Source: Prochlorococcus sp. MIT 1314
GTDB lineage: Bacteria; Cyanobacteriota; Cyanobacteriia; PCC-6307; Cyanobiaceae
NCBI RefSeq assembly: GCF_034093315.1
Contig: NZ_CP139300.1
Span: 992,001-1,056,000 of the forward strand
Direction of reading: 5' to 3'
DNA: 64,000 bases
Both the position numbers and the translations under genes were made by a program. Below the pieces are notes generated by a model, which worked only from the letters and a program-made list of their open reading frames with translations, searched no databases and had not been told where the DNA came from. This document shows, piece after piece, positions 5,043 to 22,797 of the stretch (positions are counted from its first letter, which is position 1; each line of letters starts with the position of its first letter).

Positions 5043-6134
5043 TTATAAGTGAATCATTTGCGAAGAGCCTAAGAAAGACTGATTAAATTTGTCTAGATGT
5101 GTGGCACTTATAAAACATTGACTATCTTTGCCAACAGAATTTAATAACAAATTTTGCCTAGTTATATCTAGTTCCGCCAAAACATCATCCAAAATAAGTA
5201 TTGGAGGGACATTTAATGTTTTAGTTAATAAATCTAGTTCAGCCATTTTTAAAGCCAAGATAAAAGTTCTTTGCTGACCAGATGAACCATATTTTCTAAC
5301 TGAAATATTATTAATTAGAAATTCAATATCATCACGATGAGGTCCAAAATTACATTTACCAGTCAATGCTTCGATTGAACGCTGATTTAATAGTTGTTCT
5401 GCTATTTTCTTACTAATAAATTCTTCTTCTTCTTCTTCTGGACTTATATTTTGTATTCCAGAAAGATAATTTATATCTATTTGCTCTTTAGATTTACTTA
5501 AATAATTATGCCAATATTCAACATATGGTTTTATTTTTAATAGAGCCCTTCTTCTGCGCCTAAAAATCCTTGTACCTATTATTGACATTTGAATATCAAA
5601 GCTTTCAACAATGTCTGAATATTGATAATTTGGTAAACTTTCTGAACGCCAAAAATGACTTCTTTGTTTTAAAAGCCTGTTAAATCTATTTATCAGGTCT
5701 AAATATACTGGTTCAAGCTGAGATACTACTTTATCAATCCATGTTCTTCGAAAACTAGGTTCACTTCTAACAATATCTATGTCATTAGAACAAAAACATA
5801 CGCTCCGAATATAATTCTTTATTTCACTCTGCTTTTTCAAGATCGATTCATTGACATAAATTCTTTTAGGGCCTTTTCGGAATAAATTCAACTTTAAATC
5901 ATCTTTAAAATCTATTTGTCCTATGACAACAGCCATATCACTATCATTTTCTATTAGATCTTTATCACTGAATGCTCTGTTTGATTTTAATTGACTTAAG
6001 AATTCAACCGATTCAAGTAAATTTGACTTACCAATACCATTACAACCAAGAACAATTGCTCTTTGCTCTATGAGATCAATTTCAAAACTTTTATGGTTCC
6101 GAAAATTTTTAATTTTTAATTTATTTAGAAAAAT
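5043..6134 (-). CDS. recF: RecF DNA repair/recombination protein, non-canonical start
   Basis: RecF loads RecA at gapped DNA with RecO and RecR. The N-terminal Walker A motif GCNGIGKSNLLES, the signature SSGQQRTF and the Walker B ILILDDVLAELD are all present in one uninterrupted frame. The first ATG in frame (5936) lies after the P-loop, so it cannot be the true start. Going back, the frame stays open to 6207 without any ATG, GTG or TTG. Homology-like sequence (IFLNKLKIKNFRNHK) begins at an ATT at 6134, giving 363 residues, the usual RecF length. An ATG at 6151 in the neighbouring frame would join recF if one base were gained in the A8 run between them (6134-6141). Start annotation is therefore uncertain; product is not. 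Confidence 0.8.
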   Translation of the reverse strand: MFLNKLKIKNFRNHKSFEIDLIEQRAIVLGCNGIGKSNLLESVEFLSQLKSNRAFSDKDLIENDSDMAVVIGQIDFKDDLKLNLFRKGPKRIYVNESILKKQSEIKNYIRSVCFCSNDIDIVRSEPSFRRTWIDKVVSQLEPVYLDLINRFNRLLKQRSHFWRSESLPNYQYSDIVESFDIQMSIIGTRIFRRRRRALLKIKPYVEYWHNYLSKSKEQIDINYLSGIQNISPEEEEEEFISKKIAEQLLNQRSIEALTGKCNFGPHRDDIEFLINNISVRKYGSSGQQRTFILALKMAELDLLTKTLNVPPILILDDVLAELDITRQNLLLNSVGKDSQCFISATHLDKFNQSFLGSSQMIHL

Positions 6135-6211
6135 TTTTTTTGTGCACTCATTAATTAAATTAGCTAACTTTAAATTATTTAGATTTTCTTTAAAGAAATT
6201 GAAAAATTAAA

Positions 6212-6285
6212 GGGCATGTAGCTCAGTTGGATAGAGCATCAGATTCCGGTTCTGAGAGTCGGGGGTTCGAATCCCTCCATGCTCG
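6212..6285 (+). tRNA. tRNA-Arg (CCG)
   Basis: A 74-nt cloverleaf. The acceptor stem GGGCATG pairs with CATGCTC with one G-U pair. The anticodon stem TCAGA/TCTGA encloses the loop TTCCGGT, giving anticodon CCG (reads CGG), and the T loop is GTTCGAATC. It lies divergently in front of recF and convergent to the GNAT gene. Confidence 0.95.
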
Positions 6286-6296
6286 TAAAATTATTT

Positions 6297-6743
6297 TTAA
6301 AGTTTAAGTCCCATTACTCTTATTCCGTTTGGATCTAGTATGAATCCAATTTCTTCTAAACTTTTAAATGAAGATACTGGAGCCTGCACAGAAATACTGC
6401 ATCCAGGCATTTCTCTATTTATTTTCTCAAGAGTGACTTGAAGCAATATTGAATAATAAAGTTGCTGATTATTACCTGGAGCTGCACTTAAATTCCATAA
6501 GTTAGCATTCAATCCCCTGTCAGATGTAACCCTTACAAAGCCATATAATTTGTTTTTTAATTCACTCTGTATTGTGAAAAAGAAATTACTTTTCTGAATG
6601 GCATCAGAAAGAGGTTTTATTGGAAATGTCTCACAACCACAATTAGCTAAAAGTTTGTTAACTTCTCTAGCTGATGGAATCTGAGAAGAGTTAACAAAAT
6701 AACCTTCTGGAAGAATAAGTTTTTTTTTAGAAAAATATTGCAA
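6297..6743 (-). CDS. GNAT-like acetyltransferase family protein
   Basis: A 148-residue protein with a central LYGFVRVTSDRGLNANLWNL stretch and a later IGFILDPNGIRVMGL end. This looks like the beta4-beta7 part of a GNAT fold, although the acetyl-CoA pyrophosphate loop is poorly conserved. It starts 3 bases after the ppc stop and is probably cotranscribed with it. The substrate is unknown. Assignment rests on fold-like pattern only. Confidence 0.5.
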   Translation of the reverse strand: MQYFSKKKLILPEGYFVNSSQIPSAREVNKLLANCGCETFPIKPLSDAIQKSNFFFTIQSELKNKLYGFVRVTSDRGLNANLWNLSAAPGNNQQLYYSILLQVTLEKINREMPGCSISVQAPVSSFKSLEEIGFILDPNGIRVMGLKL

Positions 6744-6746
6744 TAA

Positions 6747-9716
6747 TCAACCTGTATTTCTCATGCCAGCTGCTATCCCATTAATAGTTAAAAGTGCCCC
6801 CCTCAGTAGTTCACTTCTACTATAAGCTCTTCTAGATTCATCTTTGTCAATAAGAAACTCGCTAATTGGGGGTTGTCTGGTTTGATCTCTAAGTCTTCTG
6901 AGAAGTGACACTTGCAAAAATCCCAATGGAATTATTGTCTTATTTCTCAAGCTTACTGATGATTTTAAGTCTCTATCAGATTCAAGGAGCTTATTTTTAC
7001 CAGTAATTTCAAGTATTAAAGATTTTGTAAGATTATATTCTTGAGAAATTACTTCAAAAATATCATCAAAAGAATCTTTATTTGCTTTACTTCCTAGAGT
7101 GTCAACATAATATCTAGCTACTTCCAGATCTACCTTAGATAAAGTCATTTCTACCTTGGATATAAGCATCCTGAAGAATGGCCATCTTTGATGCAGAACT
7201 CTTAATAATTCGATTTGTTGTGGGTCTGAATTTAATTCTGATGATAATGCAGTACCTACTCCAAACCAGCTTGGCAAAAGAAATCTACTTTGTGTCCAAC
7301 CAAATACCCATGGAATAGCTCTTAAACTTGACAAATCTTTTGCCCCCTTTTTTCTTCTGGCAGGCCTGCTAGATATCTGTAATTTACTTATTTCTTCTAT
7401 TGGCGTAACCTCTTGAAAGAAATTCAACAAATCAGGATTTTCATGTACTAATTTTCTGTAGTGAGTCCTAGATGTTTCTGCCAGCCTAGACATTAATTGG
7501 TTCCATTCTGGAGTTGCGTCAAGACTGTTATTTACCAAACTATTTTGAATGACCGCTGTAGTAACAGTTTCAAGATTGTATAAAGCCAGTTCTGGAAGAC
7601 TATATTTAGAAGCTAACACTTCACCTTGTTCTGTTATTTTTATTCGCCCTTTTAAAGTACCGCTTGGTTGAGCCAATATTGCCTGATAAGCCGGTCCTCC
7701 CCCTCTACCTACAGAACCGCCTCTTCCATGAAAAAGTCTTAGCAATATGTTATTTCTACTTGCAAGATTTTGAAGAGCTATTTGGGCTCTATGAATTTCC
7801 CAATTACTAGAAACAAACCCCGAATCTTTATTGCTATCAGAATATCCAAGCATTAATTCTTGAAGAGGTCTAAAAGATTCTCCACTTTTTGGCAATAATG
7901 ATCTATAAAAATCTAATTTAAACAAATTTTCCATTACTTCTGGTGCTCTTTTAAGATCTTCAACAGTTTCAAAAAGAGGAACGACTAATAATTTTGACTT
8001 TTGTGAATTTTGATCAATAAGTCCCATTTCTTTTGCCAGCAAAAGAACTTCAAGTAAATCAGACGCACTATGACTCATTGAAATGACATAAGAATGACAA
8101 ATACGACTACCAAATTCTTGCTGGAGTCTCTTAACCATTTTAAAAACTGAAAAGGTTTCTTCTGTAGTTTTTGTCCAGTTGACATCAGAGGGAATTAAAG
8201 GCCTTTTGGTATTTAATTCGTCTATGAGCCATTTCATTTTCTCTGGCTCAGACATTTGATCATATTGCACAGATAAATCAAGATAATTTGTAAGCTCTTG
8301 TATAGCGTCACTATGCCTTGTACTTTCTTGACGAATATCTAAACTTGCTAAAGAAAAACCAAAAATATGAACCTGTGTAAGTAATGTATTAACTGCCTCG
8401 CAAGTTAAATCTGTACTAATCAGGCTATTTTTAATTAGTTCGAGGTCATAGGTAAATTCGTTTACTGATTTATAATATAAGTTTTCAATTTTATCTATAT
8501 CTTTATTATCCATTTCTCCCTCTAAGTCAAATTTCCACCCATTTTCAGCTAATAAATTATTCCTTTCTTGTGTTAACCTTAATTTTTCTAAAATATAACT
8601 TAATTTCAATCTATAAGGTTCTGATCTGTATCTTGTCGCCCTGGCTTCATAAATTTCTGGGAACTTAACCCTATCTGTTTCCAATGACTCTAATAAAGAA
8701 GAACTTACTTGACTCCATTGCATTGAAACACTTAATTGATCTCTAAGATTAGATGTTGCAATAATATATCTTTCCAACATCAACTGCCTTTGGTAGCAAG
8801 CAGTTCTCCATGTTATCTCTGGAGTAACCGATGGATTACCATCCCTATCGGAGCCGACCCAAGAACCGAAGTTACAAAAAGATTCAGAAGGCATCTGAAC
8901 ATCTGGATAATTTTCGGTGAGTGCTTCAGCGATTCTACCTCTCAATTGAGGCATTGCATTAAATAAAACTTGCTGAAAATAATGCAAAGCATAATCCACT
9001 TCGTCTAAAACTGAAGGTTTAAATTGATGCAATTCATCTGTTCTCCACCATAGTCTTACTTCCTCTTTTAATTGAGTTTTTAGAGAATTTTTTTCTTCTT
9101 TTGTTAAAAATTGCTCAACCTGTATTTTTTTCAACAAATTTGCAACTCTGGTTTGCTTATGCCTAATCGTATGTCTTACTATCTCGGTCGGATGTGCAGT
9201 AAAAACTAAACGAATATCCATTTCCTGCAATAATGCCTCTAGTTTTCCTGGAGGTACATTTAATTTTCTCAGCCTATAAAATAATTCTCTAAAAGTTACT
9301 GGAGCATTTTGTCTGGCCAATGCTGGGGCAAAAGGATCTAGATTATCTGGCGATTTTTGAACATTCTTATTGGTAAAGCTTTGAATATATCTATCTTCCT
9401 CCACTCTTTGTTCCAAAATATTCACTAGTTGAAAATATAATGAAAACGCCCTTGCTGCTGCTATGGATTCTGCCAAATCCATAGAATTTACAATATCAAC
9501 TATTTCATTTTTAAAAGTTTTTGAACTATCACAATCCATTCGTTTTGAATAACTCAATTCTTTAAGCTGTATTAGTCTCTCTGCTTGATCATCAGGGCAT
9601 TCTTCTCTGAGCACAGATTCCCATAAATCCTCTATTAAAAGACGATTTTTATCAAGTGGATCATTGTTACTTATCAGATCCACGTTATTATTTTTTATCT
9701 GTTGAAAGGAATTCAT
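6747..9716 (-). CDS. ppc: Phosphoenolpyruvate carboxylase
   Basis: At 989 residues it is a normal-length cyanobacterial PEP carboxylase, which carboxylates PEP to oxaloacetate to replenish the truncated TCA pathway. The catalytic His segment [13 protein letters not shown], the [16 protein letters not shown] motif, [11 protein letters not shown], the Gly-rich [13 protein letters not shown] loop and the C-terminal GMRNTG are all present. It sits in a minus-strand run with gshA upstream (53-base gap) and the GNAT gene downstream (3 bases). Confidence 0.98.
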
Positions 9717-9769
9717 ATTATTATTATGTCACAAGTAAAAAAGTTCAGATCAAATGTTTATTTAAATCA

Positions 9770-10888
9770 TTAAACATCCTCTTCTTCACTCTTAATCATA
9801 TCTTCGATAGCAATTTTCATTATCTGATCAATAGAAAGACCGTTTTTATATTGATTTATCCATTTCATAGATTGATTACCTTCGTCAAGCACTTTATAGA
9901 TAGGTTTCAAAAGATGTTTCATACTAAATTTTTCTGCGGTGGATGATAAATCTGATAATAAATTTTTAATCCAATCTCTACAAATAATTTTTTTTCCATC
10001 TTGCCAGTGAATTAACTGTGAATTCAGACTTTCTTTAGCAGCATTAATTTCATTCTGATCACATATTTCTGATAATTCATCGATAGAAAATACACTAGCA
10101 GTCAAAGGATCTAAAGTATCCATATTATCAAAAAGATTTAAAATCCTTAGTTCTAGCATGGCTGTTATCCCTAATAGCAAATTAATATCATGAACAAAAT
10201 CACAAATTCTTAATTCCAATCGATCAAGAATTAAAGGCCTTTGGGGACCATTTGGTCGGATTGAAGACCAAAAATGCCTAATATTTTGCATATTTTTATT
10301 AGCTATATTTTCTTCGATCCAATCGACATAGCTATTATGATTTACAAAAAAAGGTACTTTACTTGGTGTTTTGGGAAACTGAATCCATCTCTGAGAATGA
10401 TTTTCCGTAATTTTATTATTTAAAAAAGGTGAGCTAGCACTTATTGAGAGATACAAAGCGGCTTCAGATCTTATCAGTCTTATGGCAGCAAAAAGCTTAT
10501 CTAAGTTATCTATTCCTATATTTATGTGGACACTTGAGGTTGCGATAGAGATTCCATAATTATCTTGTATAAATTGATGATAAACATTTTCAATATCAGA
10601 TCTTTGAAATTGAATATCGTGTTTAAAACAAAGCGTGGATGAAGGAATAATTGTTAAACCTTTATTGTTTAGCCATTGTCTTAAATTTTTTCTTGGAGTT
10701 CTTAATTTCTCGTATAAAAACTTATAGTCTTTTTCAGGTGTTGTTATATATTCAACATTCCTATTATCTGGCTCTTTCACAAAATTAGAAAAATGTTTTT
10801 CAATATCAGCGGAAACACCAATATGAGAATTTAAAGAACCTGTGAAAAGTTCAACCTCAAACCCCTTATAAAGATTATTGTTAATCAT
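9770..10888 (-). CDS. gshA: Glutamate-cysteine ligase, cyanobacterial type
   Basis: A 372-residue protein resembling the cyanobacterial GCL group (FEVELFTG near the N-terminus, SSVHINIGID in the middle, LDRLELRICDF later). It makes gamma-glutamylcysteine, the first step to glutathione. The ATG follows the TAA of trpE with no intervening base, so the two are surely cotranscribed. It is related to the GCS2/EgtA-like fold rather than E. coli GshA. No gshB lies nearby. Confidence 0.8.
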   Translation of the reverse strand: MINNNLYKGFEVELFTGSLNSHIGVSADIEKHFSNFVKEPDNRNVEYITTPEKDYKFLYEKLRTPRKNLRQWLNNKGLTIIPSSTLCFKHDIQFQRSDIENVYHQFIQDNYGISIATSSVHINIGIDNLDKLFAAIRLIRSEAALYLSISASSPFLNNKITENHSQRWIQFPKTPSKVPFFVNHNSYVDWIEENIANKNMQNIRHFWSSIRPNGPQRPLILDRLELRICDFVHDINLLLGITAMLELRILNLFDNMDTLDPLTASVFSIDELSEICDQNEINAAKESLNSQLIHWQDGKKIICRDWIKNLLSDLSSTAEKFSMKHLLKPIYKVLDEGNQSMKWINQYKNGLSIDQIMKIAIEDMIKSEEEDV

Positions 10889-12409
10889 TTAATTATCCAA
10901 ACAGGCTAATGCTTTTAGTATCCCCTTTGCTTTATTGATTGTCTCTTGATATTCATTTTCAGGAAAAGAATCAGCAACTATTCCAGCACCAGCTTGCACT
11001 GAAATATCATATTTTCCATCTTTTGAGGGTTTAACGATCATAGTTCTTATTGTTATTGCCGTATTTAATGCACCATTAATATCAATCGATCCGTAAACAC
11101 CAGCATAAGGTCCTCTAGCATCTTTTTCAAAGTATTTTATCAATTGCATAGCTCTTATTTTTGGTGCACCAGTTACAGTTCCAGCGGGAAAACATGCCTT
11201 TAGTAAATCCCATACATCAGTATTTTTTTTTAAGATTCCCTCAACTTCACTAACTATATGCATAACATGTGAATATTTCTCAATAACCATTAAATCTTTG
11301 ACCTCCACGGTACCAATTTCACAAACTCTTCCAAGATCATTTCTTCCAAGATCTATTAGCATTACATGCTCAGCTATCTCTTTTGGATCTTTTAATAAAT
11401 CTTTTTCTAATTTAAGATCTTGCTGATGATCAATACCTCTAGGTCTTGTACCAGCTATTGGTCTCAAGTTTGCAACAATCTGATTATCTTTATTCTTTTC
11501 AGCTTTAACCATTACTTCAGGACTGGAACCAATAAGATACCATGAGCCAAAATCAAAAAATGACATATATGGAGAGGGATTAACCATCCTCAAACTTCTA
11601 TATAAATTAAAAGGTTCATTATTGACTTTAGTGTGAAATCTCTGACTTATAACTATTTGGAAGATATCTCCTTTTCTTATATATTCTTTTGCAGAGAGAA
11701 CTGCATCCTCAAAATCTTTTTTCTTCCAATTACTTTTAAGATCTAAATTCAAATTCTCATTTTCATTCCAATCTAAGAACTCACTTTCTTTTAGAGGAAC
11801 TTTCATTAAATTTCTAGTTTTCTGAAGTTTAGAAATTGCGTTTAGATAAACTTCTTCAATAGAAAATTCTTTTAAAGAACTTGTATCTGCGTAGACCACT
11901 GCGGTTATGCATCTTTTAATTTGATCAAAAATAACTAACTGATCAAAAAACATCCAAGAGCCATAAGGAATATTCTTTTCTTGAATTTCATTTATTGGAA
12001 CGCTTGGTTCTATTCGATTAATTAATTCATAACCCCAAGAACCATATAATTGTCCAATTGATGGAAAGTTATCAAGCATGGATGATTTATATTCCTTTGT
12101 CCAATTTCTTAAAATATCAAAGGGATCACCTTTATAAATTTCCTTTTTTCCATTATTCCAAGTTTTAACTATTTCTTCTCGATAAGAAATTGCTTCCCAA
12201 AGAGGTTTAGTAGCAACAATACTCCATCTTCCCAAATTCTCTCCGCCTTCTACAGATTCAAGAAAAACACCATGAGAATCTTTATCTGATAATTTTAACC
12301 AAGTCGATAATGGAGTCTCTAAATCTGCTGGCCAAGTTTGGGTGATAGGTATAAAATTTTTACCTTCTTTGTGTGCCTTTAAAAAACTATCTTTCTGTGA
12401 GCTGATCAT
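10889..12409 (-). CDS. trpE: Anthranilate synthase component I
   Basis: A chorismate-binding enzyme of 506 residues. The N-terminal half has the FLESVEGGENLGRWS segment, where the tryptophan feedback site lies. The catalytic half has GDIFQIVISQRF, IAGTRPRG, EHVMLIDLGRNDLG and AGTVTGAPKIRAM. It converts chorismate plus ammonia or glutamine to anthranilate with TrpG, which is not in this window. It is directly joined to gshA. Confidence 0.95.
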   Translation of the reverse strand: MISSQKDSFLKAHKEGKNFIPITQTWPADLETPLSTWLKLSDKDSHGVFLESVEGGENLGRWSIVATKPLWEAISYREEIVKTWNNGKKEIYKGDPFDILRNWTKEYKSSMLDNFPSIGQLYGSWGYELINRIEPSVPINEIQEKNIPYGSWMFFDQLVIFDQIKRCITAVVYADTSSLKEFSIEEVYLNAISKLQKTRNLMKVPLKESEFLDWNENENLNLDLKSNWKKKDFEDAVLSAKEYIRKGDIFQIVISQRFHTKVNNEPFNLYRSLRMVNPSPYMSFFDFGSWYLIGSSPEVMVKAEKNKDNQIVANLRPIAGTRPRGIDHQQDLKLEKDLLKDPKEIAEHVMLIDLGRNDLGRVCEIGTVEVKDLMVIEKYSHVMHIVSEVEGILKKNTDVWDLLKACFPAGTVTGAPKIRAMQLIKYFEKDARGPYAGVYGSIDINGALNTAITIRTMIVKPSKDGKYDISVQAGAGIVADSFPENEYQETINKAKGILKALACLDN

Positions 12410-12468
12410 ACTAATAATGTCAACCCAAATTATAATTATATTCGTCTTTTATATCAACTTTGAGAAAT

Positions 12469-12891
12469 TTAATCAAAAGTATTCTTAGTTGTAAATTTCA
12501 ACCCAGCTGGATTAGGATTCTCACCTATTCTCCTTGGGTTATGGCCAACTTTTTCTCTACCCTCATTTACTTTCTCAGGGAAAACACCATCTTTTGGATG
12601 TAAGAATTCAATATCACCACCCGGGAAGATTCTGTAGATTTTGAAGTCCTCAATTCTTGGTTTGAAAGCTCGTAATTGTGTACCTAGTGCAAGACATTGT
12701 TCTTTTCTTGCAAAGTACATTAAATTATCACCTTCGTGCATAATAGCAGCACCACCAGTGGGTAATTCAAATGCTTGTTCTTTTGAACTATTCCATACAA
12801 TTGCATATTTTTCTTCTGTTTCTGCTGAGTTTAATAAACCCCCAGTACTTCCTATATGCTTTGGAAATTGACCAACTAAAGTTTCCGTCAT
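12469..12891 (-). CDS. psaD: Photosystem I subunit II (PsaD)
   Basis: A 140-residue stromal/cytoplasmic extrinsic subunit that docks ferredoxin and stabilises PsaC. Typical PsaD segments are visible: [40 protein letters not shown], and the C-terminal [16 protein letters not shown]. It has its own promoter space upstream (about 110 bases), which includes a strong hairpin that may insulate it from the upstream kinase gene. Confidence 0.97.
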
Positions 12892-12963
12892 CCTAGATTT
12901 TGAGTTATTTATAATAAGAAATTAGCATTCATATTTTACAAAATTCAAAATTTGCAAGAAAGT

Positions 12964-12989
12964 TTCTACATTATTTAATAAATGTAGAA
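12964..12989. terminator. Hairpin terminator between histidine kinase gene and psaD
   Basis: TTCTACATT (12964-12972) pairs perfectly with AATGTAGAA (12981-12989) around an 8-base loop. A GTTTTTT run follows on the plus side, and a weaker ACTTTCTT follows on the minus side. It lies 14 bases beyond the stop of the minus-strand kinase gene and 70 bases before psaD, so it could end the mrp-rodA-kinase transcript and also block antisense reading. Confidence 0.5.
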
Positions 12990-13002
12990 GTTTTTTGTCC
13001 TT

Positions 13003-14367
13003 TCATTTTGAATCTGAAATCGGGAAAAATACTGTCAAACCTGTATCACGCCTTTGTGTAACACGCCCTCCTAAGCTAGCCAATAACTTTTGAGTTGCAT
13101 TTTGACTTAATTGTAAACTACCCGTTTGAGGGTTCCAATTTAAAACAGGACCTATATCAGAACCATTTTCCTTTTTTAATATTTCTTTTTGATTACTATC
13201 TAATTTTTGTACTTTTAGTTGAAGTTTGAGTTTTTGGCCGGCTGGTCTTAATTCTAAAATCAATGTACTACCCTCTTTCAATCCTCTAGTATTCTTATCA
13301 ATTAATCCCCTTAACATTAATTCTAATTTTTCAGAATCACTCAAAATTTGCGGAAGTTGACTAGGGATATCGATCTTTAAAGAAATGCCACGTCGATTTA
13401 ATTGTTTATGCCATAGTGGAGCAAGTTTTTTAAAAATTTCAGCTAAATTAATTTTTACCAAGTTATTTAACGTAGAAACTTCATTACTTACTAATTCTGC
13501 AGCATTAAAAATTAAACCGAACCTATCAATTTGTTCATTACATTCATTATCTATTTGAATTAAACGATTTCTCATTGATTCATCCATATTATATTTTTTT
13601 AAAGTAGAACTTATTAGGGTTCTTATAGTGGCTAAAGGAGTTCTTACTTCATGAGAAATTGCACTTAACAATTTTGCTTCAGTTATTTGTATATTTTTTA
13701 TATCGTTTTCCAAAGAATTGTATATATTATGGTTTGATCCCAAGCTTGCCAATTTTGCCGATAATATTGGCCAAAAAATTTTCTCAAATTGATTATTAAT
13801 ATTAAGATTACCTAAATTATTTATTGCATTAAGGAATCTATCTCCTTCTTCATAATTTTCTTGTTTTAATTTCGCATGCATTAATTCAATTGAAATTTTT
13901 AAGCTTTCTTTGTCACATTTCATTAATAGGATTTTCTTATCTTTTTCTCCTGCAATTGATAAAATGCATTGAAAATTTGGAGTAATTATCATTAAAAAAG
14001 GTTCATAACCATCCTTCTGACTGAGATTCAAAACTTTATAATTACTGACAAAATCAAGATCTTTTTTAATCTTAGTTGAATTATTGGGTGGCAAAAAACC
14101 TGCATTATCTTTTTGAAAGTATGGAAATCCCAACGGTGACCACACCCAACCATGAAGTTGATTGAAAATTTTTTTATCATTAAGAGCTGGCAAAGGAGAA
14201 GCAACCCAAACGCCTCCAAGTTTGTAATTTTGAGAAAGAAAATCTTTTTGAATAACTTCTAAAGCAGCCCACCACATTCTTCTAGAGGTAACATCATCAA
14301 CATGTATAGTGTGAACTCCTTTAATCAAAAGGTCTTGAATTTCTTTTATAGTAATTTGTGATTTCAT
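13003..14367 (-). CDS. Sensor histidine kinase with degenerate ATPase domain
   Basis: A 454-residue soluble protein with no clear membrane segment. The N-terminal ~200 residues form an unassigned sensory region. A HisKA dimerisation helix follows with the phospho-acceptor motif LSAISHEVRTPLATI near residue 240. In the C-terminal HATPase region the N box is expected around MLRGLIDKN, but the usual N-A and glycine-box (DxGxG, GxGLG) motifs are not recognisable. The ATG at 14367 overlaps the rodA TGA (TGATG), indicating translational coupling. It resembles the cyanobacterial kinases of this size but I do not assign it to a named Hik. Confidence 0.75.
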   Translation of the reverse strand: MKSQITIKEIQDLLIKGVHTIHVDDVTSRRMWWAALEVIQKDFLSQNYKLGGVWVASPLPALNDKKIFNQLHGWVWSPLGFPYFQKDNAGFLPPNNSTKIKKDLDFVSNYKVLNLSQKDGYEPFLMIITPNFQCILSIAGEKDKKILLMKCDKESLKISIELMHAKLKQENYEEGDRFLNAINNLGNLNINNQFEKIFWPILSAKLASLGSNHNIYNSLENDIKNIQITEAKLLSAISHEVRTPLATIRTLISSTLKKYNMDESMRNRLIQIDNECNEQIDRFGLIFNAAELVSNEVSTLNNLVKINLAEIFKKLAPLWHKQLNRRGISLKIDIPSQLPQILSDSEKLELMLRGLIDKNTRGLKEGSTLILELRPAGQKLKLQLKVQKLDSNQKEILKKENGSDIGPVLNWNPQTGSLQLSQNATQKLLASLGGRVTQRRDTGLTVFFPISDSK

Positions 14368-15635
14368 CAACTTCTTAAAGATCTAGAACGTTTGAATATA
14401 GATAAGACAAATCCAAGAGATATAAAATTAATAACCAAAGATGTTCTACCATAACTCATAAAAGGAAGAGGTATGCCAGTAACTGGTCCTAAGCCAATGG
14501 TCATAAATAAGTTAATAATTATTTGGAATAAAAAAGTTGCAGCGATCCCAATAACTATTAGAGATTCAAAATCAGTTCTAGCATTTTTTGCAATGTTAAT
14601 AAGTTTTTTAATCAAACTAAAAAATAAAAATAAAACTATTATGCATCCCAAAAAACCCAACTCTTCACCTAGAGCACTGAATATAAAATCAGTATGTTGT
14701 TCGGGTATAAATTGCAAATTAGTCAACTTACCTTGTAACAAACCAGTCCCAAAAAAACCTCCCGAACCAATTGCAATTTTACTCTGTAACAAATGATATC
14801 CACCACCTAATGGATCTCTATTAGGATCTAAAAATAAAACTAATCGATCTTTTTGATATTCTTTAAGGCCATTTTGCCACAAAATTGGTGTCAATTTTGC
14901 CCCCAATAAATGAAAAAATATAGCAACAACAGAAAAAATAATTTTCTTTTTCGAAGATCTATAAGCAAGATATCCTATAAATGGAATCCAGAAAATAAGA
15001 ACAGTTGGTAAAATTAAATACAATATAGAAGTAACAATAAATAAAACTAATATCAAAATCCACTCTATTGGCATTTGCGACCAATACAGCATCACACCTG
15101 TAAAAACAAATAAAACCAAAGAAGTGCCTAAGTCTGGTTGAAAGAAAATTAATAACCAAGGAATAATAACTACTAATAAGGGCAATAATAAATCTTTTAT
15201 TGTTGAAATTGTTTTTTTGTCGAGAACTAAAGCAAGAGTTAATACAGTACTCAATTTAGCTACTTCTGAAGGTTGAAAGGAAAAAATTCCAAAGCTTAGC
15301 CATCTTTGAGCTCCAGAAACTGAGATCCCCAAAAAATAAATTAGAAATAAGCATATTAAAGTACACAAATAGAATGGTATCAAATACTTTCTAAGTCTCT
15401 CTAAAGGTATATGAGAAATAAAAAATGCCAAAAAATAACCTAAAATACCAGTTAAGATGTGACTTAAATAATTAGATACTAAAAAATCACCCTGAATACT
15501 TTTTATTAAAAAACCTGAAATAATAACTAAAAATAGGGGGATCAAAAGTAGAGGAGACAATAAAAATCGTTTACTAAACTTATCTTTTTTTCGAAAAAAT
15601 CCTCTCTTATTTAATAAAAAAATACCCCTAAACAT
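14367..15635 (-). CDS. rodA: Rod shape-determining protein RodA (SEDS peptidoglycan polymerase)
   Basis: A 422-residue SEDS family membrane protein with about ten hydrophobic segments. SEDS signatures include QPDLGTSLVLF, KSKIAIGSGG-like QSKIAIGSGGFFGTGL, and PLPFMSYGRTSLV near the C-terminus. It polymerises glycan strands with a class B PBP during elongation, acting with the MreBCD proteins encoded at 54.6-57 kb. The ATG at 15635 is preferred over the TTG just before it; the mrp stop is 3 bases upstream. Confidence 0.9.
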   Translation of the reverse strand: MFRGIFLLNKRGFFRKKDKFSKRFLLSPLLLIPLFLVIISGFLIKSIQGDFLVSNYLSHILTGILGYFLAFFISHIPLERLRKYLIPFYLCTLICLFLIYFLGISVSGAQRWLSFGIFSFQPSEVAKLSTVLTLALVLDKKTISTIKDLLLPLLVVIIPWLLIFFQPDLGTSLVLFVFTGVMLYWSQMPIEWILILVLFIVTSILYLILPTVLIFWIPFIGYLAYRSSKKKIIFSVVAIFFHLLGAKLTPILWQNGLKEYQKDRLVLFLDPNRDPLGGGYHLLQSKIAIGSGGFFGTGLLQGKLTNLQFIPEQHTDFIFSALGEELGFLGCIIVLFLFFSLIKKLINIAKNARTDFESLIVIGIAATFLFQIIINLFMTIGLGPVTGIPLPFMSYGRTSLVINFISLGFVLSIFKRSRSLRS

Positions 15636-15638
15636 CAA

Positions 15639-16709
15639 CTATTTATTAACAAATTGATTTTTAATTAATTGAGCTAAATTCTCAAATTCAATAGAACTTT
15701 CTTTATTTGGCTGGCTTATTGAAATTGGTATTCCTTTATTGCTGTCATCCACAAGAGGAATTTCAATAGGAATTTGAGCTAATAAGGGTAAATCATTTTC
15801 TTTAGCTAATGTTTGACCACCACCTTTACCAAAAATTTCATATTTTTTACTTGGCATATCTGGCGGAATAAATACTGACATATTTTCTACAATTCCCAAT
15901 AAGGGTACACCAAGTTGTTTAAACATTGCTAATCCCCGCCTTGCATCTTGCAAAGATACTTGTTGTGGAGTAGTAACGACAATAGCTCCAGAAATAGGCA
16001 CGGATTGAGAAAGAGAAATTTGAGCATCTCCTGTTCCTGGAGGTAAGTCAATAACCAAAAAATCAAGATTATTCCATTCAACTTGGTAAAGAAATTGACG
16101 GATAATGCTATTTAGCATTGGTCCTCTCCATATAACTGGCTGACCTTCTTCTATAAGAAAACCCATTGATACTAATGAAATTCCATATTTATTTATTGGT
16201 ATTAATCTTTGATCATTACCACTACCCTCTGTAACCTTAGGATTCTGTTCAGCAACACCCATCATTGAGGGAGTATTAGGTCCATATATATCCGCATCCA
16301 GTAAACCAGTTTTTAATCCTAATTTAGCTAAAGAACAAGCAAGATTAACTGCAATCGTACTTTTTCCAACTCCACCTTTGCCGCTGCTAACAGCGATGAT
16401 ATGTCGAATGCCGTCAATCCGCTGCAACGCAGGCCCATCACTAACAGTGTTGGATTCTGTTTTGGAAAGATTATTATCTATCTCTATTTGAACATCGTTA
16501 ATATCTTCAAAATCAAGTAGTATTTTTCGAACCTCGTTTACAATTCTATCTCTCTGAGAATTTGCGAATGATGGCAATGATAGTGTTACGATTACTCTTG
16601 GTGTGGTTACTCGTACGTTTTTGATCCAAGCTAATTCAATTACATTTTTCTTTGATCCAGCATCTAGAACCTTTTGTAAAGCTAAATTCGCATCTTCTAT
16701 TGTGGTCAT
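15639..16709 (-). CDS. mrp: Mrp/ApbC-family iron-sulfur carrier P-loop ATPase
   Basis: A DUF59/MIP18-like N-terminal domain (about 1-85) is followed by a Mrp/NBP35 ATPase domain. That domain has the deviant Walker A motif SSGKGGVGKSTIAVNLA, the DADIYGPNTPSM segment and LVIDLPPGTGD. Family members carry or deliver Fe-S clusters, which matters for photosystem I and ferredoxins. It is the first gene of a tight minus-strand unit with rodA and the histidine kinase. No CxxC pair is conspicuous in the C-terminal part. Confidence 0.9.
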   Translation of the reverse strand: MTTIEDANLALQKVLDAGSKKNVIELAWIKNVRVTTPRVIVTLSLPSFANSQRDRIVNEVRKILLDFEDINDVQIEIDNNLSKTESNTVSDGPALQRIDGIRHIIAVSSGKGGVGKSTIAVNLACSLAKLGLKTGLLDADIYGPNTPSMMGVAEQNPKVTEGSGNDQRLIPINKYGISLVSMGFLIEEGQPVIWRGPMLNSIIRQFLYQVEWNNLDFLVIDLPPGTGDAQISLSQSVPISGAIVVTTPQQVSLQDARRGLAMFKQLGVPLLGIVENMSVFIPPDMPSKKYEIFGKGGGQTLAKENDLPLLAQIPIEIPLVDDSNKGIPISISQPNKESSIEFENLAQLIKNQFVNK

Positions 16710-16867
16710 TAAATTTTTAAATATTTTGACAAGGTAGTCGACAGTTTAAAAGATTAAGAACTATGTCGAACTATCAAATAATAAGAAATAAGCCCCCCTT
16801 AAGAGAAATTATAAAGGGAAACTTATAATTAACCAAAAAACTTTTTTCTTCAATATTTACTAAATAT

Positions 16868-17896
16868 ATGTTCAAAGAACCTCCTAAAAACTCTAGAGAA
16901 GACACTAAAAATCTCTTATTAACTCTACAAGACAAGATTTGTTCCGGACTTGAAAATGTTGATGGCAAAGGAAAATTCACCGAAGAATCTTGGCTAAGAG
17001 ACGAAGGAGGCGGTGGGAGATCAAGAGTATTGAAAAACGGTTCTATTTTTGAGCAAGCAGGAGTAAACTTCTCTGAAGTACAGGGAAAAGAATTACCTCA
17101 ATCAATCATCTCTCAGAGGCCAGAAGCAAAAGGTCATGAATGGTTTGCGACAGGAACCTCTATGGTATTGCATCCTGAGAATCCTTATATTCCTACAGTT
17201 CATCTAAATTATCGGTATTTTGAAGCTGGTCCTGTTTGGTGGTTTGGCGGAGGTGCAGACTTAACTCCTTTTTATCCTTATCTTTCTGATGTGAGAAATT
17301 TTCATAAAGAGCATAAAAAAGCTTGTGAAAAAGTTGATAAAGATTTACATAAAGTTTTCAAACCATGGTGTGATGAATATTTCTTCTTGAAGCACAGAAA
17401 TGAATCTAGAGGCATAGGAGGTATTTTTTATGATTATCAAGATGGTTCAGGCAATATTTATAGAGGAAATAATCACAATGGAGAGGCATCAAAAGCTTCA
17501 AAAAATATTGGCAAACCTAATTTAAATTGGGATAATTTATTTTCATTAGCCGAAAACTGTGGACAGGCATTCCTGCCTTCATATCTGCCCATTATTGAAA
17601 AAAGAGTTAATCAAACATATACATCTAAGGAAAGAGAATTTCAGTTATATAGAAGAGGTAGATATGTAGAATTCAATTTAGTTTGGGATAGAGGTACGAT
17701 TTTTGGATTACAAACAAACGGTAGAACTGAATCCATACTAATGTCATTGCCACCTTTAGCCAGATGGGAATATGGATATAAAGCTAAAAAGGGTTCTCGA
17801 GAGGAATTTCTAACGTCAATTTTCACAAAGCCCCAAGATTGGTTAAATGATAAAGATTTAGAAAAATTCTGTATGGAAAATAATATTTTTGATTAA
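16868..17896 (+). CDS. hemF: Oxygen-dependent coproporphyrinogen III oxidase
   Basis: A 342-residue HemF with characteristic [31 protein letters not shown] and [14 protein letters not shown] segments. It decarboxylates coproporphyrinogen III to protoporphyrinogen IX in heme and chlorophyll synthesis using O2. The ATG at 16868 sits 2-3 residues before conserved-type sequence. About 160 bases of non-coding sequence upstream probably carry its promoter. Confidence 0.97.
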
Positions 17897-19582: not shown

Positions 19583-20812
19583 CTAAGATAACAAATGAAA
19601 GATTATAGAATCTACAATTTTCTTGCTAGCGCCAGATTGGCCCATTCTTTTTTTTCCAATTTTCGCTTGCTCCAATCTATAAACTTTTTTTCTCAACAGT
19701 AACCTTAAACGTTTTAAAAGAATTTTTTTATTCTTGCAAACTAAAACACTACCTCCTAATAATCGAGATTGCCTTTTTGCAAATGATTTTGTGAATTGTG
19801 GCCCTGATCCTGGAAGAGAAAGAGATGGAATCCCTAGGCCAGCAATTTGTTCTGTAGCAGTTCCTGCATTAGACAAGCCAACATCTGCCATGGAGGCCCA
19901 TAAATCGAATTGGCCTTTTCCAATCAATATATATTGTTCTCTCTTTTTCCATACTGAATCTTCATGAATCAAAAATTTGACTTTACTCTGTTTTTTAAAA
20001 CCATGTTTGTTTAAATAACTTTGAATGTTAATCAAATTAGCATTAATACTCAAAGGCAAAAGTATTACCAAATCCTTAGGTAAATTAAAATCTTGCAAAC
20101 AATCCAGAAAATTATCAAGATTCTTTAATGCTTCTGGGTATCTACTTCCAATTAACAAAATTATCCTTTTGAAAGCAATAATATTTGATATCTTTTCATT
20201 TTTTTTAGATACAAAGTCCATCATTGGATTACCCAAATATTTTGCAGGAATATTTTTTTTATTCAAATTATTAGCTGTGATTTTATCTCTCATAATTAAA
20301 TTTTTACATCTTGGAGATGTCATTAAAAACATTTCCCATGGGTCCCATTCCGAACCCTTCAACTTATGATAAACATCGCTTAAAGCCCAACCCGGTCTAC
20401 TACTCCACGTGTGATCACTTTTGGGAGTCCCAACAAAACTGAATTCACATTCTGAACACCAAGCAAAAAATAATGGTAGAAAATCTCCCACTGCAATAAT
20501 TTTGCAGTTATGTTTTGACTTTCGTTTTACAATTAAAAAATTTCTTAAATTATCAATTAAAAATCCTGAAAACAAATCAAGTACAAATCCCTTCAGGCTT
20601 TGATTACTAAAACCTCCACTAGGCAGCTCTTTTAAATATCCTATTTTACGAAAATTCTTTGATTGTAAGGAATTAAATACATCTCCATTTCCTACTAAAG
20701 GCAAAACTTCAATATTTTTATTTTTTATTTTTTTTAATAATCTTTTGATTATTTCTAATGCAATTACATCTTCTCCATGGCCATTGCATATAAATAATAG
20801 AGAATGAGTCAC
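19583..20812 (-). CDS. Lipid-A-disaccharide synthase-related protein
   Basis: About 409 residues from the GTG at 20812 (Met-Thr-His-Ser-Leu-Leu). The N-terminal LLFICNGHGEDVIALEI motif is that of the cyanobacterial and plant 'lipid-A-disaccharide synthase-related' group of GT-B proteins. The C-terminal half has GLSNAGTATEQIAGLGIPSLSLPGSGP, the nucleotide-sugar site. The frame remains open upstream, but that extension is the antisense of tRNA-Cys and should not be counted as protein. The true substrate is unknown; it is probably not LpxB itself. Confidence 0.8.
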   Translation of the reverse strand: MTHSLLFICNGHGEDVIALEIIKRLLKKIKNKNIEVLPLVGNGDVFNSLQSKNFRKIGYLKELPSGGFSNQSLKGFVLDLFSGFLIDNLRNFLIVKRKSKHNCKIIAVGDFLPLFFAWCSECEFSFVGTPKSDHTWSSRPGWALSDVYHKLKGSEWDPWEMFLMTSPRCKNLIMRDKITANNLNKKNIPAKYLGNPMMDFVSKKNEKISNIIAFKRIILLIGSRYPEALKNLDNFLDCLQDFNLPKDLVILLPLSINANLINIQSYLNKHGFKKQSKVKFLIHEDSVWKKREQYILIGKGQFDLWASMADVGLSNAGTATEQIAGLGIPSLSLPGSGPQFTKSFAKRQSRLLGGSVLVCKNKKILLKRLRLLLRKKVYRLEQAKIGKKRMGQSGASKKIVDSIIFHLLS

Positions 20813-20854
20813 CTTACTGTTAAGATCAGTAAAAGATTCAATTGAATCTTTTTC

Positions 20855-20925
20855 GGCGGCATGGCCAAGTGGTAAGGCAGAGGATTGCAAATCCTTTATC
20901 CCCAGTTCGAATCTGGGTGCCGCCT
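20855..20925 (+). tRNA. tRNA-Cys (GCA)
   Basis: A 71-nt cloverleaf with acceptor GGCGGCA/TGCCGCC, discriminator U, anticodon loop TTGCAAA (anticodon GCA) and T arm CCCAG-TTCGAAT-CTGGG. A T-run follows at once. It is divergent to the gene on its left and flanks an accessory stretch on its right that carries a second copy of its 3' end (21840-21866). Confidence 0.95.
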
Positions 20926-20932
20926 TTTTTAA
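20906..20932 (+). repeat. att-like direct repeat, copy 1 (inside tRNA-Cys 3' end)
   Basis: This 27-base block spans the T loop, acceptor strand and first bases after tRNA-Cys. It matches 21840-21866 at 24 of 27 positions, including 14 identical bases at the start (TTCGAATCTGGGTG). tRNA 3' ends are the classic target of tyrosine-recombinase elements, which leave such a duplication at the far end of the insertion. Confidence 0.6.
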
Positions 20933-21011
20933 ATTAGTAAATAATTTCGCTGTAAAGCGTTCCAAGCACAAGAGTTTATTGTAGCGATTATTAATACTCA
21001 AGACGTTTAAA

Positions 21012-21113
21012 AATGGGCAGTAAGTTACCTAATAAATTATCAGGTTTTTTGATCCTTTGATATGCCTATATGCTTGAAAGTATGATATCTTCAATCGAGA
21101 ATTTATTAAACAA
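21012..21113 (-). pseudogene. Decayed fourth unit of the repeat protein
   Basis: Directly after the stop of the repeat ORF, the same frame reads LFNKFSIEDIILSSI, then TAG, then AYQR, before losing similarity. It is thus a broken extra unit, and the ancestral ORF was probably longer. Loss began with the TAA at 21114-21116 and the internal TAG, or both arose after the array lost function. Confidence 0.6.
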
Positions 21114-21421
21114 TTACTTTCCTATTTGTGAACCCACACCTTGCTTGAGTTCCTTTTGATATGCCTCTTTGCTTGAGAGTAAGATCTCGTTAATCGAGAA
21201 TTTATTAAATAATGACTTTCCTATTTGTGAACCCAAACCTTTGTTATTGAGTTCCTTTTGATATGCCTCTTTGCTTGAGAGTAAGATCTCGTTAATCGAG
21301 AATTTATTAAATAATGACTTCCCTATTTGTGAAACTACATCTTTATTATTGAGTTCCTTTTGATATGCCTCTTTAGTTGAGAGTAAGATCTCGTTAATCG
21401 AGAATTTATTTAACAATGACA
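21012..21421 (-). repeat. Tandem repeat array, about 100-base units, four copies (one decayed)
   Basis: Units of 99-102 bases repeat in tandem. Equivalent points (the CCTATTTGTG motif) lie at 21121, 21220, 21322 and about 21423. Copies 2 and 3 are nearly identical over most of their length; the copy nearest tRNA-Cys is degraded. Each intact copy contains the dyad TCTCG-TTAAT-CGAGA (21185-21199, 21287-21301, 21389-21403). Three copies are in frame as a protein. Confidence 0.85.
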
Positions 21422-21422
21422 T
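21114..21422 (-). CDS. Repeat protein of three ~34-residue units, function unknown
   Basis: A 102-residue protein built almost only from three copies of a 33-35 residue unit, with core LFNKFSINEILLSSKEAYQK and ending SQIGK. All sequence variation between copies keeps the frame open, and the unit length is a multiple of three, which argues for protein coding. The unit is soluble and probably helical (about half charged or polar). The stop falls exactly at a unit boundary. Past it a fourth unit can still be read with one internal TAG and then drifts away, so the gene looks shortened. There is no good ribosome site in front of the ATG. I do not recognise the family. Confidence 0.45.
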   Translation of the reverse strand: MSLLNKFSINEILLSTKEAYQKELNNKDVVSQIGKSLFNKFSINEILLSSKEAYQKELNNKGLGSQIGKSLFNKFSINEILLSSKEAYQKELKQGVGSQIGK

Positions 21423-21497
21423 TCTTATTTGTGAAAATTGCTTTGTAGATGATCACTTAAGTTCTCAATTCTTTTATAACGCATAGCAACTTAGACT

Positions 21498-21635
21498 TCA
21501 ACTGTGTGAGATCTTTTTTAAAAATCTATATACCTGACTTTGGCAATTATCTTCATTGCGTTCTCTTCCAAAACTCTTTTCATGATAATTGCATCTGCAC
21601 TGTATTTTCTTCAATCTTTTGTATTCCTGATTCAA
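21498..21635 (-). CDS. Possible 45-residue small protein with a strong ribosome site
   Basis: A TTG at 21635 is preceded at 5-base spacing by GGAGG, an unusually good Shine-Dalgarno for this genome. It opens a 46-codon frame rich in Lys, Arg, Glu and Cys (starts LNQEYKRLKKIQCRCNYHEK when the start codon is read literally; ends LKKISHS). No stops occur in a strongly AT-rich stretch. A second, shorter 24-codon ATG frame overlaps it. It lies between the repeat array and the GC-rich inverted repeats of the tRNA-Cys island. No family is recognised. Confidence 0.4.
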   Translation of the reverse strand: MNQEYKRLKKIQCRCNYHEKSFGRERNEDNCQSQVYRFLKKISHS

Positions 21636-21643
21636 GGTTTCCT

Positions 21644-21660
21644 CCCCTATTCATTAGGGG
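21644..21660. repeat. GC-rich perfect hairpin in tRNA-Cys island
   Basis: CCCCTA (21644-21649) pairs with TAGGGG (21655-21660) around TTCAT. The stem is GC-rich in an AT-rich background and lies just upstream of the possible small gene on the minus strand. On the minus strand its left arm overlaps the ribosome-site sequence. Confidence 0.5.
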
Positions 21661-21689
21661 GACACTTTAGAGATACCAGTTAATATCAT

Positions 21690-21777
21690 TTACCGCCCGA
21701 AATTCCTTACGAATACGTTAATTAAGAGCAAAAATAAGCACTAAGAATAACCCTTATGGGCGGTAAGCGGGCGGTAA
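21690..21777. repeat. Inverted repeat with 10-bp perfect arms
   Basis: TTACCGCCCG (21690-21699) is the exact reverse complement of CGGGCGGTAA (21768-21777), with about 68 bases between. The right arm is preceded by another copy of GGGCGGTAAG (21758-21767, direct repeat at 21769-21778). The GC content is far above the surroundings. Possible recombinase arm sites or a remnant of a mobile element; function not shown. Confidence 0.6.
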
Positions 21778-21839
21778 GTTTTTAATTTGTATCGCTGAAA
21801 AAGTAGTTATAGTTTCAATTCTAAGTATTCATACCCTAA

Positions 21840-21866
21840 TTCGAATCTGGGTGGCGCCTTCCTTAA
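21840..21866 (+). repeat. att-like direct repeat, copy 2 (orphan tRNA-Cys 3' fragment)
   Basis: A partial copy of the tRNA-Cys 3' end lying 934 bases from the original (24 of 27 identical), in the same orientation, with no tRNA 5' half attached. It marks the right border of the 20.93-21.84 kb stretch. The mismatch in the acceptor strand and two in the trailing T-run suggest an old event. Confidence 0.6.
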
Positions 21867-21998
21867 TTTGTTTAAGCATTTAATTATAAAGTTTTAGAAA
21901 AACCTCAATTTTAAGTAAAGGGTAAACAATTTCAATTATTTATTGATATGTAGAAAATAATATTTTATTCATTATTTTCGATATAAATCTAAACTATT

Positions 21999-22166
21999 TT
22001 AGTAATCATTATCTGCCACACACATTCCTAAACATCTGATGCCATTTGATGCTGTCCTTTTGCAATGATTACATAAAATAAAATCTTTATTTGAAGAAAG
22101 CTTAACTTTTGAACTATTTTGAACCTTTAAACTTATTAACTCTTTTTTTGAATCAAATAGAGCCAT
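21999..22166 (-). CDS. Small protein with two Cys pairs (possible zinc ribbon)
   Basis: 55 residues from the ATG at 22166 (MALFDSKKELISLK...). It has CNHC and, ten residues later, CLGMC, a spacing that could bind one zinc ion. The start lies inside the end of the upstream gene (14-base overlap), which suggests translational coupling. A longer version from an upstream TTG adds 11 residues and is less likely. Function unknown. Confidence 0.6.
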   Translation of the reverse strand: MALFDSKKELISLKVQNSSKVKLSSNKDFILCNHCKRTASNGIRCLGMCVADNDY

Positions 22167-22797
22167 TCTTAGAGTCATCACTTGAGTCGATACTAACAAC
22201 TAGTGAAGCATTTGTGTTGGAAGAGGGGATATCCATAATTTTTACAGTTTCTTTAGGCTCATCAATAATTTGATTTTCTTCAACGCTTTCATCAACTGCA
22301 CATGCTTCAAGAGCTTCTCGAAGTAGTGAATCAAAAGTTGCTCCTGGCAATCTATGTCTAGCAACCTCAAGAAAAGTTCTCGGTAAAGATTCAGAAGCGG
22401 CATCTCTCAAAGCAGGATTATTTTTTCTATGTTCTTGTTCTTCTTCTATGGATTTAATAAACCTAAGTGTTACATCTCTTTTGGTAGATGCTTTTATCAG
22501 CGTGTCATTTTCAGGATTGCTAATATTAGGCTCATTTTCAAGATCGCTAAGTCTTTTTTCCAAACTATTTAAAACTTCATTAGCTTCTTTGCTGATATGA
22601 GCTAATTGACCATCGGACAAATTAGGTAAATCAGCCACAAAAACCTTCCCATGATCCCTAAGTGTCAAAAAAGTAGGTCTTGGACCTTGAGACTGTCTAC
22701 CACCAAAATCAGAATTATTACCTATTGGTCTTTTTGGAGGTGTAGGACCCGCTGAACTACGTCTACGTGTAATTCTTTTATTATTTGCAAAAGGCAT
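22153..22797 (-). CDS. Conserved-type cyanobacterial protein, function unknown
   Basis: 214 residues. A basic, Pro/Arg-rich N-terminal tail (RRRSSAGPTPPKRP) precedes a central PRPTFLTLRDHGKVFVADLP segment and helical, acidic regions, ending in a low-complexity Ser/Asp tail. No membrane segment or catalytic motif. The structured middle suggests a real conserved domain and the basic tail could bind nucleic acid, but that is only inference. Confidence 0.65.
   Translation of the reverse strand: MPFANNKRITRRRSSAGPTPPKRPIGNNSDFGGRQSQGPRPTFLTLRDHGKVFVADLPNLSDGQLAHISKEANEVLNSLEKRLSDLENEPNISNPENDTLIKASTKRDVTLRFIKSIEEEQEHRKNNPALRDAASESLPRTFLEVARHRLPGATFDSLLREALEACAVDESVEENQIIDEPKETVKIMDIPSSNTNASLVVSIDSSDDSKNGSI

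Follow-up and report, generated by a model that had tools for sequence, protein, structure and literature searches.

The tRNA-Cys locus of Prochlorococcus sp. MIT 1314 (genome G000; 1,704,447 bases, one contig) was analysed within a 64,000-nucleotide stretch of contig NZ_CP139300.1 (positions 992,001 to 1,056,000), hereafter the window, to which all coordinates refer. Between the intact tRNA gene and the next conserved gene lies a stretch of 934 bp bounded by copies of the tRNA 3' end. Based on comparison with related genomes, this stretch probably represents a non-autonomous integrative element of a tRNA-Cys-specific, integrase-coding family, whose ends would also carry the N-terminus of an overlapping core gene. 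The features of the locus are as follows.

19583–21001 (−): 472-residue open reading frame (ORF) for a lipid-A-disaccharide synthase-related protein (TIGR03492); frame antisense through tRNA-Cys, apparent start in the left end of the element
20855–20925 (+): tRNA-Cys (gca), intact, the integration target (ARAGORN)
20906–20924 (+): attL core, the 19-mer TTCGAATCTGGGTGCCGCC, 3' end of tRNA-Cys
20925–21858 (+): mini-element in integrated form, some 934 bp from core to core; an integrase was not found in it
20926–21007 (−): left end; its antisense frame joins that of the adjacent core gene without a break and would be the N-terminus
21015–21025 (+): left arm site, a single degenerate copy GGGCAGTAAGT (a pair in relatives), 90 nt from the tRNA end
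21046–21450 (−): array of four 102-bp repeats (cargo)
21114–21422 (−): 102-residue ORF of 34-residue repeats, member of a small protein family of variable copy number
21498–21635 (−): 45-residue open frame, probably the remnant of a small cargo ORF
21610–21858 (+): right end, similar to that of L371, an element with an integrase
21689–21699 (−): inverted third arm site TTTACCGCCCG
21758–21779 (+): right arm sites, a direct 11-bp pair GGGCGGTAAGC GGGCGGTAAGT, starting 101 nt before the far-core end
21840–21858 (+): attR core, identical to the tRNA 3' end at 18/19 positions
21859–22152 (+): flank to the next gene, 294 bp (mostly 357–369 bp at insert-free sites)
22153–22797 (−): conserved far-side gene, no family over the cut-off, used as an anchor

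An initial annotation of the window, made from the sequence without database searches, had reported that the tRNA-Cys 3' end at 20906–20932 recurs at 21840–21866 with 24/27 identity and its first 14 positions identical, and that the second copy lacks a tRNA 5' half. Both observations were confirmed. The 19-mer TTCGAATCTGGGTGCCGCC had just two matches in the window (up to five mismatches, both strands), indicating that the repeat is not due to chance. The tandem array proposed between the two copies is real, its four copies being 80–100% identical to the reference copy, and the GC-rich repeats noted nearby correspond to the putative arm sites, namely the direct pair and the inverted copy of the right end. 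What had been called a 45-residue gene is indeed an open frame; no family match was obtained for it, and by eye it resembles the remnant of a small ORF present in other elements. The flanking genes, described there as core genes, are conserved in relatives, and no integrase was matched in the window element or in G000.

The tRNA-Cys site was then compared across relatives, the check put forward in that annotation, and both insert-free sites and larger inserts were present. A 2-kb query covering the site matched 133 of 151 genomes (own genome included), and 100 regions were compared. Nine of these gave no measurable pair: four were not tRNA-Cys loci (L125, L126, L127 and L133), three were cut by contig ends (L041, L100 and L129), and two were of insufficient length (L040 and L120), for which the longer L134 and L135 were substituted. 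For the resulting 92 sites (the window plus 91 relatives), the tRNA end was separated from the 22153 gene by 250–260 bp in 2, 350–399 bp in 62 and 407–4461 bp in 28; the spacing in L134 was about 2.05 kb. 'Insert-free' denotes the absence of an extra insert relative to the common spacing, and at least one such site (G107) keeps an old left end. Among the relatives were sites lacking any extra insert, different inserts at an identical position, elements in tandem and ends-only forms of 190–197 bp; L039 has two elements in tandem, the second of just 190 bp. A far 19-mer (up to four mismatches) was found in 12 loci, window included, and in nine of them the outermost far core was 358–367 bp from the gene, as at insert-free sites. 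Such a constant outer flank is expected from site-specific integration. At one of the replacement loci, L135 (G071, 6100–16900), the tRNA-Cys insert measured about 10.7 kb and contained, by eye, glycosyltransferase, sugar/cell-surface and methyltransferase-like genes; no integrase was matched in it.

The inserts share approximately 100–140 bp at the left and 100–250 bp at the right, while their interiors are unrelated. Within the shared ends, paired 11-bp repeats were located mostly 88–99 nt past the tRNA and 98–102 nt before the far-core end. These repeats differ between elements (GGTAGGAAAGT, for example, is an arm sequence other than GGGCGGTAAGT) and match between the two ends of one element, as expected for integrase arm sites, which they putatively are. 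A total of 24 two-ended segments of 190–2269 bp were available, and 21 were tested after removal of L299, a near-duplicate of L293, and of two segments below 250 bp. Left and right ends agreed at 8.05 of 10 variable arm positions, compared with 4.31 ± 0.50 when permuted (0 of 20,000 permutations, n = 21), a test that overstates independence because the elements are related. Arm scores lay above those of all 400 control windows for 20/21 left and 17/21 right ends. In 29 of 33 elements, a third, inverted arm of the element's own type (at least 8/9) was present deeper in the right end, as against 12.9% of cross pairs. The exact arm pattern occurred 10 times in the 151 genomes, always at tRNA-Cys elements and in the forward orientation, and twice for the reversed control. 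When a further 12 loci were read by script, the same pair was seen at both ends in four (L261, L263, L264 and L265, three of them among the 24), the left pair alone in L262 and L266, and no pair under that pattern in six. Scanning of genome contigs for the tRNA-Cys 3' end together with arms returned 36 stretches, 35 from Prochlorococcus and one from Synechococcaceae, many of them from genomes already compared. The earlier proposal of a minimal integrated element was thus supported by variable occupancy, shared ends and core duplication.

Three side observations concern the ends. The ends-only forms L289 (197 bp) and L010/L039 (190 bp) have one shared arm pair, as if the arms had recombined and the cargo had been deleted. 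L091 (G029) has different arm types at its two ends and is possibly a chimera. Weak, recurrent matches to the left-end model were seen at a second place in many genomes (L244–L249), with no tRNA in the stretches compared.

In the search beyond the genus, a 12.76-kb tRNA-Cys element with a 388-residue ORF and a serine recombinase was found in G161. The ORF matched no Pfam family over the cut-off and no PHROG. Matches to the putative integrase (E ≤ 0.001, fragments included) were found in 8 of 266 genomes of the genus and 34 of 330 genomes of the family. Twenty further integrase regions were compared, of which L375 and L381 showed a far core with no tRNA in the stretch and seven others showed neither. 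In total, 12 tRNA-Cys elements of 6.6–12.8 kb, L321 included, had an intact tRNA and a 19/19 far core. In all 12, the integrase frame reads inward, toward the tRNA, and begins 151–472 bp from the far core (the start codon is unfixed in some). Tandem arms matched between the ends in 11 of the 12, with means of 18.1/20 for own and 14.2/20 for cross comparisons, and a small serine recombinase was recognized by motif in four, one of them (L321) with confirmation by Pfam, and by eye in L370.

Among 18 members of the integrase family, two matched the phrog_1 integrase (best E 4.8e-12, L385), and an hhalign comparison with the profiles of other integrases gave an E-value of 4e-4 at a probability of 35%, a weak match. 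A sequence search of PDB with the integrase profile returned one meaningless match (E 0.71). Putative catalytic residues were assigned by eye as R290 (18/18), K319 (17/18), R398 (18/18) and Y436 (18/18). The one strong PHROG match, the weak profile match and the retained R, K, R and Y, with the HxxR histidine absent, point to a putative divergent tyrosine integrase, which would recombine the sites described above. A set of 51 PF00589-type recombinases, in which tycheposon and other types were unsorted, was also compared with 128 distinct tRNA-Cys loci, the lowest E-value being 0.14. Among the matches listed in the PF00589 scan, the loci lacked these arms, one chance-like match apart. That match, L174, was the single one obtained with a looser arm pattern in 50 PF00589 loci and was rejected.

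Within the same genus as the window, the full element L371 (G382, 7131 bp) has GGGCGGTAAGT pairs at both ends, which is the arm type of the window element. The two elements are 86–88% identical at the right end (86% over 253 aligned bp), and align over 142 bp at the left at 72% and over 81 bp inside at 85%. By both ends, the window element, L304, L037 and L067 were nearest to L371, and L294 and L010 were nearest to L369, in each case exceeding the 0.50–0.70 of shuffled sequences. For the other minis, as the integrase-less inserts are called here, the similarity to the nearest full element was moderate (L370 for L261, L290 and L128) or near the background of the shuffles. Because L371 shares its arm type and right end with the window element, the latter was read as its integrase-less relative. 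The window element is classed not as a full member but as a derivative, lacking the integrase, of a tRNA-Cys integrative element, since it combines integration at the tRNA-Cys 3' end, core duplication and ends homologous to those of an integrase-bearing element with the lack of an encoded integrase.

No integrase match was found in G000 or, remnants included, in the 24 two-ended minis. The eight integrase-matching genomes of the genus included none of the 26 in which the spacing was at least 500 bp, drafts included; most integrase-bearing and many mini-bearing genomes are drafts, so that these absences are not final. The lack of an integrase in G000 and in the 26 genomes suggests that movement depends on a helper. 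With its degenerate left arm, one core mismatch and no integrase in the genome, the window copy itself is probably immobile at present.

Helpers were sought in viruses and phages. The 19-mer, which the initial annotation had recommended searching for in viral sequences, was contained in three viral contigs, two with a tRNA-Cys of their own and one unrelated and phage-like with no tRNA-Cys in the stretch. Core plus arms occurred in no viral contig, and the arm pattern alone occurred in six, four of which were read around the match and gave no convincing context. A search of the viral contigs with the integrase of L177 yielded one distant locus at 22% identity, the new integrase family had no relative there as a viral helper, and a phage collection gave no match by integrase or by element.

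The left end was examined as coding sequence. The 472-residue ORF matched TIGR03492 over residues 69–467 (E 4e-140), and its reading frame crosses tRNA-Cys on the opposite strand to reach the left end, where 82 gap-free columns were obtained across 27 aligned left ends. An open frame on the strand opposite a tRNA gene is often spurious. In this case, the frame extended unbroken from the left end across the tRNA to a conserved motif in 151 of 154 loci, a set in which some sites occur twice and from which four more loci with too little upstream sequence are left out. The gene frame was open for at least 23 codons outward in 128/128 loci, a start codon lay 23–28 codons out in 112/112 (searched from 21 to 28), and the placement of the start codon fitted in 20/20 greedy clusters (<75% identity). 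At 45 insert loci, the gene frame was open for at least 20 codons in all 45, compared with 10 and 3 for the other antisense frames and 28, 0 and 6 for the sense frames. The ratio of nonsynonymous to synonymous polymorphism (pN/pS) in the gene frame was 0.52 in inserts and 0.41 at insert-free sites, and ranged from 0.91 to 1.49 in four other frames. The keeping of the frame and its constraint argue against a spurious antisense frame here. Its role as the N-terminus of the core protein appears to be one reason why the left end is kept, and its antisense frame apparently supplies the first 23–25 codons of the gene; integration would accordingly swap the N-terminus of the TIGR03492 protein and not cut it off. 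Conservation of the left end had at one stage been ascribed to protein-binding sites alone, an explanation revised after the coding test, and no RNA structure was predicted in it. Outside the genus, two further N-terminal types recur, one in L321 and L382 and the other in L377 and L384.

The cargo of the window element belongs to a family of 34-residue-repeat proteins (window 21114–21422, minus strand, and L187–L215) with about one to four near-identical repeats, the copy number varying between strains. At the DNA level, the family was matched in 42 of 151 genomes (E ≤ 0.001, own included), in 29 of them below 1e-40. It also occurs in apparent elements at tRNA-Asn (L125) and tRNA-Ser (L126) and at other loci, and the ends of L125 and L126 show other repeated motifs. 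Separately, in the integrase-bearing L176, L177 and L178, located at tRNA-Ser and tRNA-Asn, motifs of 11–13 bp were seen by eye to recur at the two ends, the sequence differing from one locus to the next (GGTGTGGCGAA, ACACATGTAAAA and TTACTAGTCCAT), and matched arm sites may therefore be general.

Together with the variable occupancy, core duplication and shared ends, the matching of the arms, the full-size relative and the constrained open frame of the left end are consistent with the following mechanism. The paired 11-bp arm sites of both ends and the inverted third site of the right end would be bound by the integrase, which would recombine the 19-bp core with the tRNA-Cys 3' end, by which the tRNA would be restored and the core duplicated at the far end. 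Minis, keeping the ends and cargo alone, would move only in trans, with an outside integrase of the matching arm type. With the left end continuing the TIGR03492 frame, integration would replace the N-terminus of that protein, presuming that the new start is translated.

The main rival is that the minis are autonomous elements in decay, which lost their integrase by deletion after integration and do not move in trans. Part of the evidence suits it: decay is visible in the window copy, whose left arm is degenerate and whose core matches at 18/19; a sibling in G077 is without the right end and far core; and the 190–197 bp ends-only forms, in which a single arm pair is shared, have the appearance of deletions from arm to arm. 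It explains less readily that minis have varied cargo and that several retain intact arms and 19/19 cores, or that the repeat-array cargo also occurs in the apparent tRNA-Asn and tRNA-Ser elements. No integrase remnant was found in the 24 two-ended minis, a result with which loss after arrival is still compatible. On balance, decay was considered the less likely account. The window element is more than an isolated relic, being part of an integrase-less population with matched ends.

A resident recombinase might instead move the elements, the obvious candidate being a 389-residue tyrosine recombinase (L260:2338–3507, minus strand; G000:C1 1667837–1669006) fixed beside a gene that is hemH-like by eye. 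It was matched (E ≤ 0.001) in 192 of 201 family genomes and, among the matches listed, was the sole PF00589 match in the mini-bearing G060 and G137. However, it is family-wide, whereas left-end matches below 1e-8 were confined to one genus in the family sample; arm types vary between strains and within G060, which one conserved enzyme does not explain; and a dedicated integrase with matching arms exists. This possibility was judged very improbable. Equally little credence was given to an origin of the repeats by plain duplication or by homologous recombination between strains, although the latter could swap cargo between shared ends and the left end is conserved partly because it is coding-like: different inserts stop at the same 19-bp core, the outside flank is constant in 9/12 loci, and the full elements carry their integrase at a constant place.

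A number of observations weigh against the proposed non-autonomous, helper-dependent element. In 3 of the 12 loci with a far core the outer spacing deviates (window, 294 bp; L038, 314 bp; L037, 258 bp). The arms of L091 agree at just 1/10 positions, those of L009 at 3/10 and those of the window, where the left pair is degenerate, at 5/10; L009, L116 and L304 have no clear right pair, and the full element L379 has no left arm match. Seven of the 24 two-ended elements were collected by a scan in which left arms were a prerequisite, although this does not bias the left–right comparison. Arm matching could alternatively come from recombination between the repeats, and the elements compared included no integrase-bearing partner for the arm types GGTAGGTGAGT, GGTCGGCAAGT and GGACAGCAAGT. 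Regarding the integrase, none of the 18 members matched a Pfam or NCBIfam integrase and only two matched PHROGs; the histidine of the HxxR motif is replaced by T or K in 18/18, which weakens the proposal slightly, and the later His/Trp is not fixed. Of the three exceptions to the continuous gene frame, L227 departs in sequence near a contig end, and L378 and L334 are out of frame. L379, L380, L383 and L388 are in frame with N-termini unlike the others. One sense frame, whose wobble columns are shared with the gene frame, likewise has a low pN/pS (0.69, 0.38) and is open for 20 codons in 28/45 inserts. Lastly, excision, a circular form and transfer are postulated from sequence.

The non-autonomous reading can be extended to a picture in which tRNA-Cys is a docking port and the cassette ends combine an integrase address with a start module for the core gene, movement being matched to a helper and each arrival swapping the N-terminus; this was given about even chances. 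If true, integration would double as a switch diversifying a host protein while repairing the tRNA, and an element-borne N-terminus would make this an unusual tRNA-targeting element that also rewrites an overlapping core protein. In the compared genomes, tRNA-Cys inserts are mostly integrase-less and lie in genomes where the integrase was not found. Given this predominance, helper-dependent movement can be tested by pairing arm type with integrase.

Some integrative and conjugative elements (ICEs) insert into a protein gene and provide it with a 5' end, an example being SXT in prfC. The window element resembles SXT-type ICEs in that a host protein gene would receive a new start upon integration; it differs in that its att site is a tRNA gene, the protein gene overlapping on the other strand. 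As in miniature inverted-repeat transposable elements (MITEs) and clusters of attC sites lacking integrases (CALINs), the ends are kept, the recombinase is missing and a helper is expected (PMC11389934). Unlike these, which have transposon inverted repeats or attC sites, the window family uses one att site in one tRNA gene and arm-like direct repeats. Additive flexible islands, such as the 330 bp to 42 kb island at tRNA-Lys in Methylopumilus (PMC10872708), share inserts in series, marked by the final 20 nt of the tRNA gene, and very small members, whereas arm sites or integrase pairing do not feature in the passages of that account. The same passages describe tycheposons as elements of 4–200 kb with a tyrosine recombinase, inserted at seven tRNA genes. 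The window element is like them in its insertion at a Prochlorococcus tRNA gene, and unlike them in its size of 0.93 kb and its lack of a tyrosine recombinase. The link to tycheposons made in the initial annotation was not upheld, the nearest integrase-bearing elements lying outside the tycheposon integrases as far as these are separated in the passages of PMC10187409.

Those passages describe a picocyanobacterial integrase that adjoins tRNA-Phe or tRNA-Cys, stands apart from tycheposon integrases, has a small serine recombinase nearby and was missed by PHROG hidden Markov models (HMMs), its mechanism being called not yet known. Both systems occur in Prochlorococcus and Synechococcus, in a subset of genomes, at tRNA-Cys and in a variable island, with a PHROG-missed integrase and a serine recombinase. 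The passages give no att core or arm sites, and the window element is without an integrase. The agreement in host range, in the associated tRNA and in the absence of HMM matches suggests that the integrase of the full elements fits that of PMC10187409 (cluster158946), matched by description and not by sequence. For this integrase type, whose mobilisation was described there as not yet known, a core, candidate arm sites and their arrangement are now supplied. Within the literature searched, the att core, the arm architecture, minis in genomes where no integrase was found and a left end that would supply an N-terminus are new.

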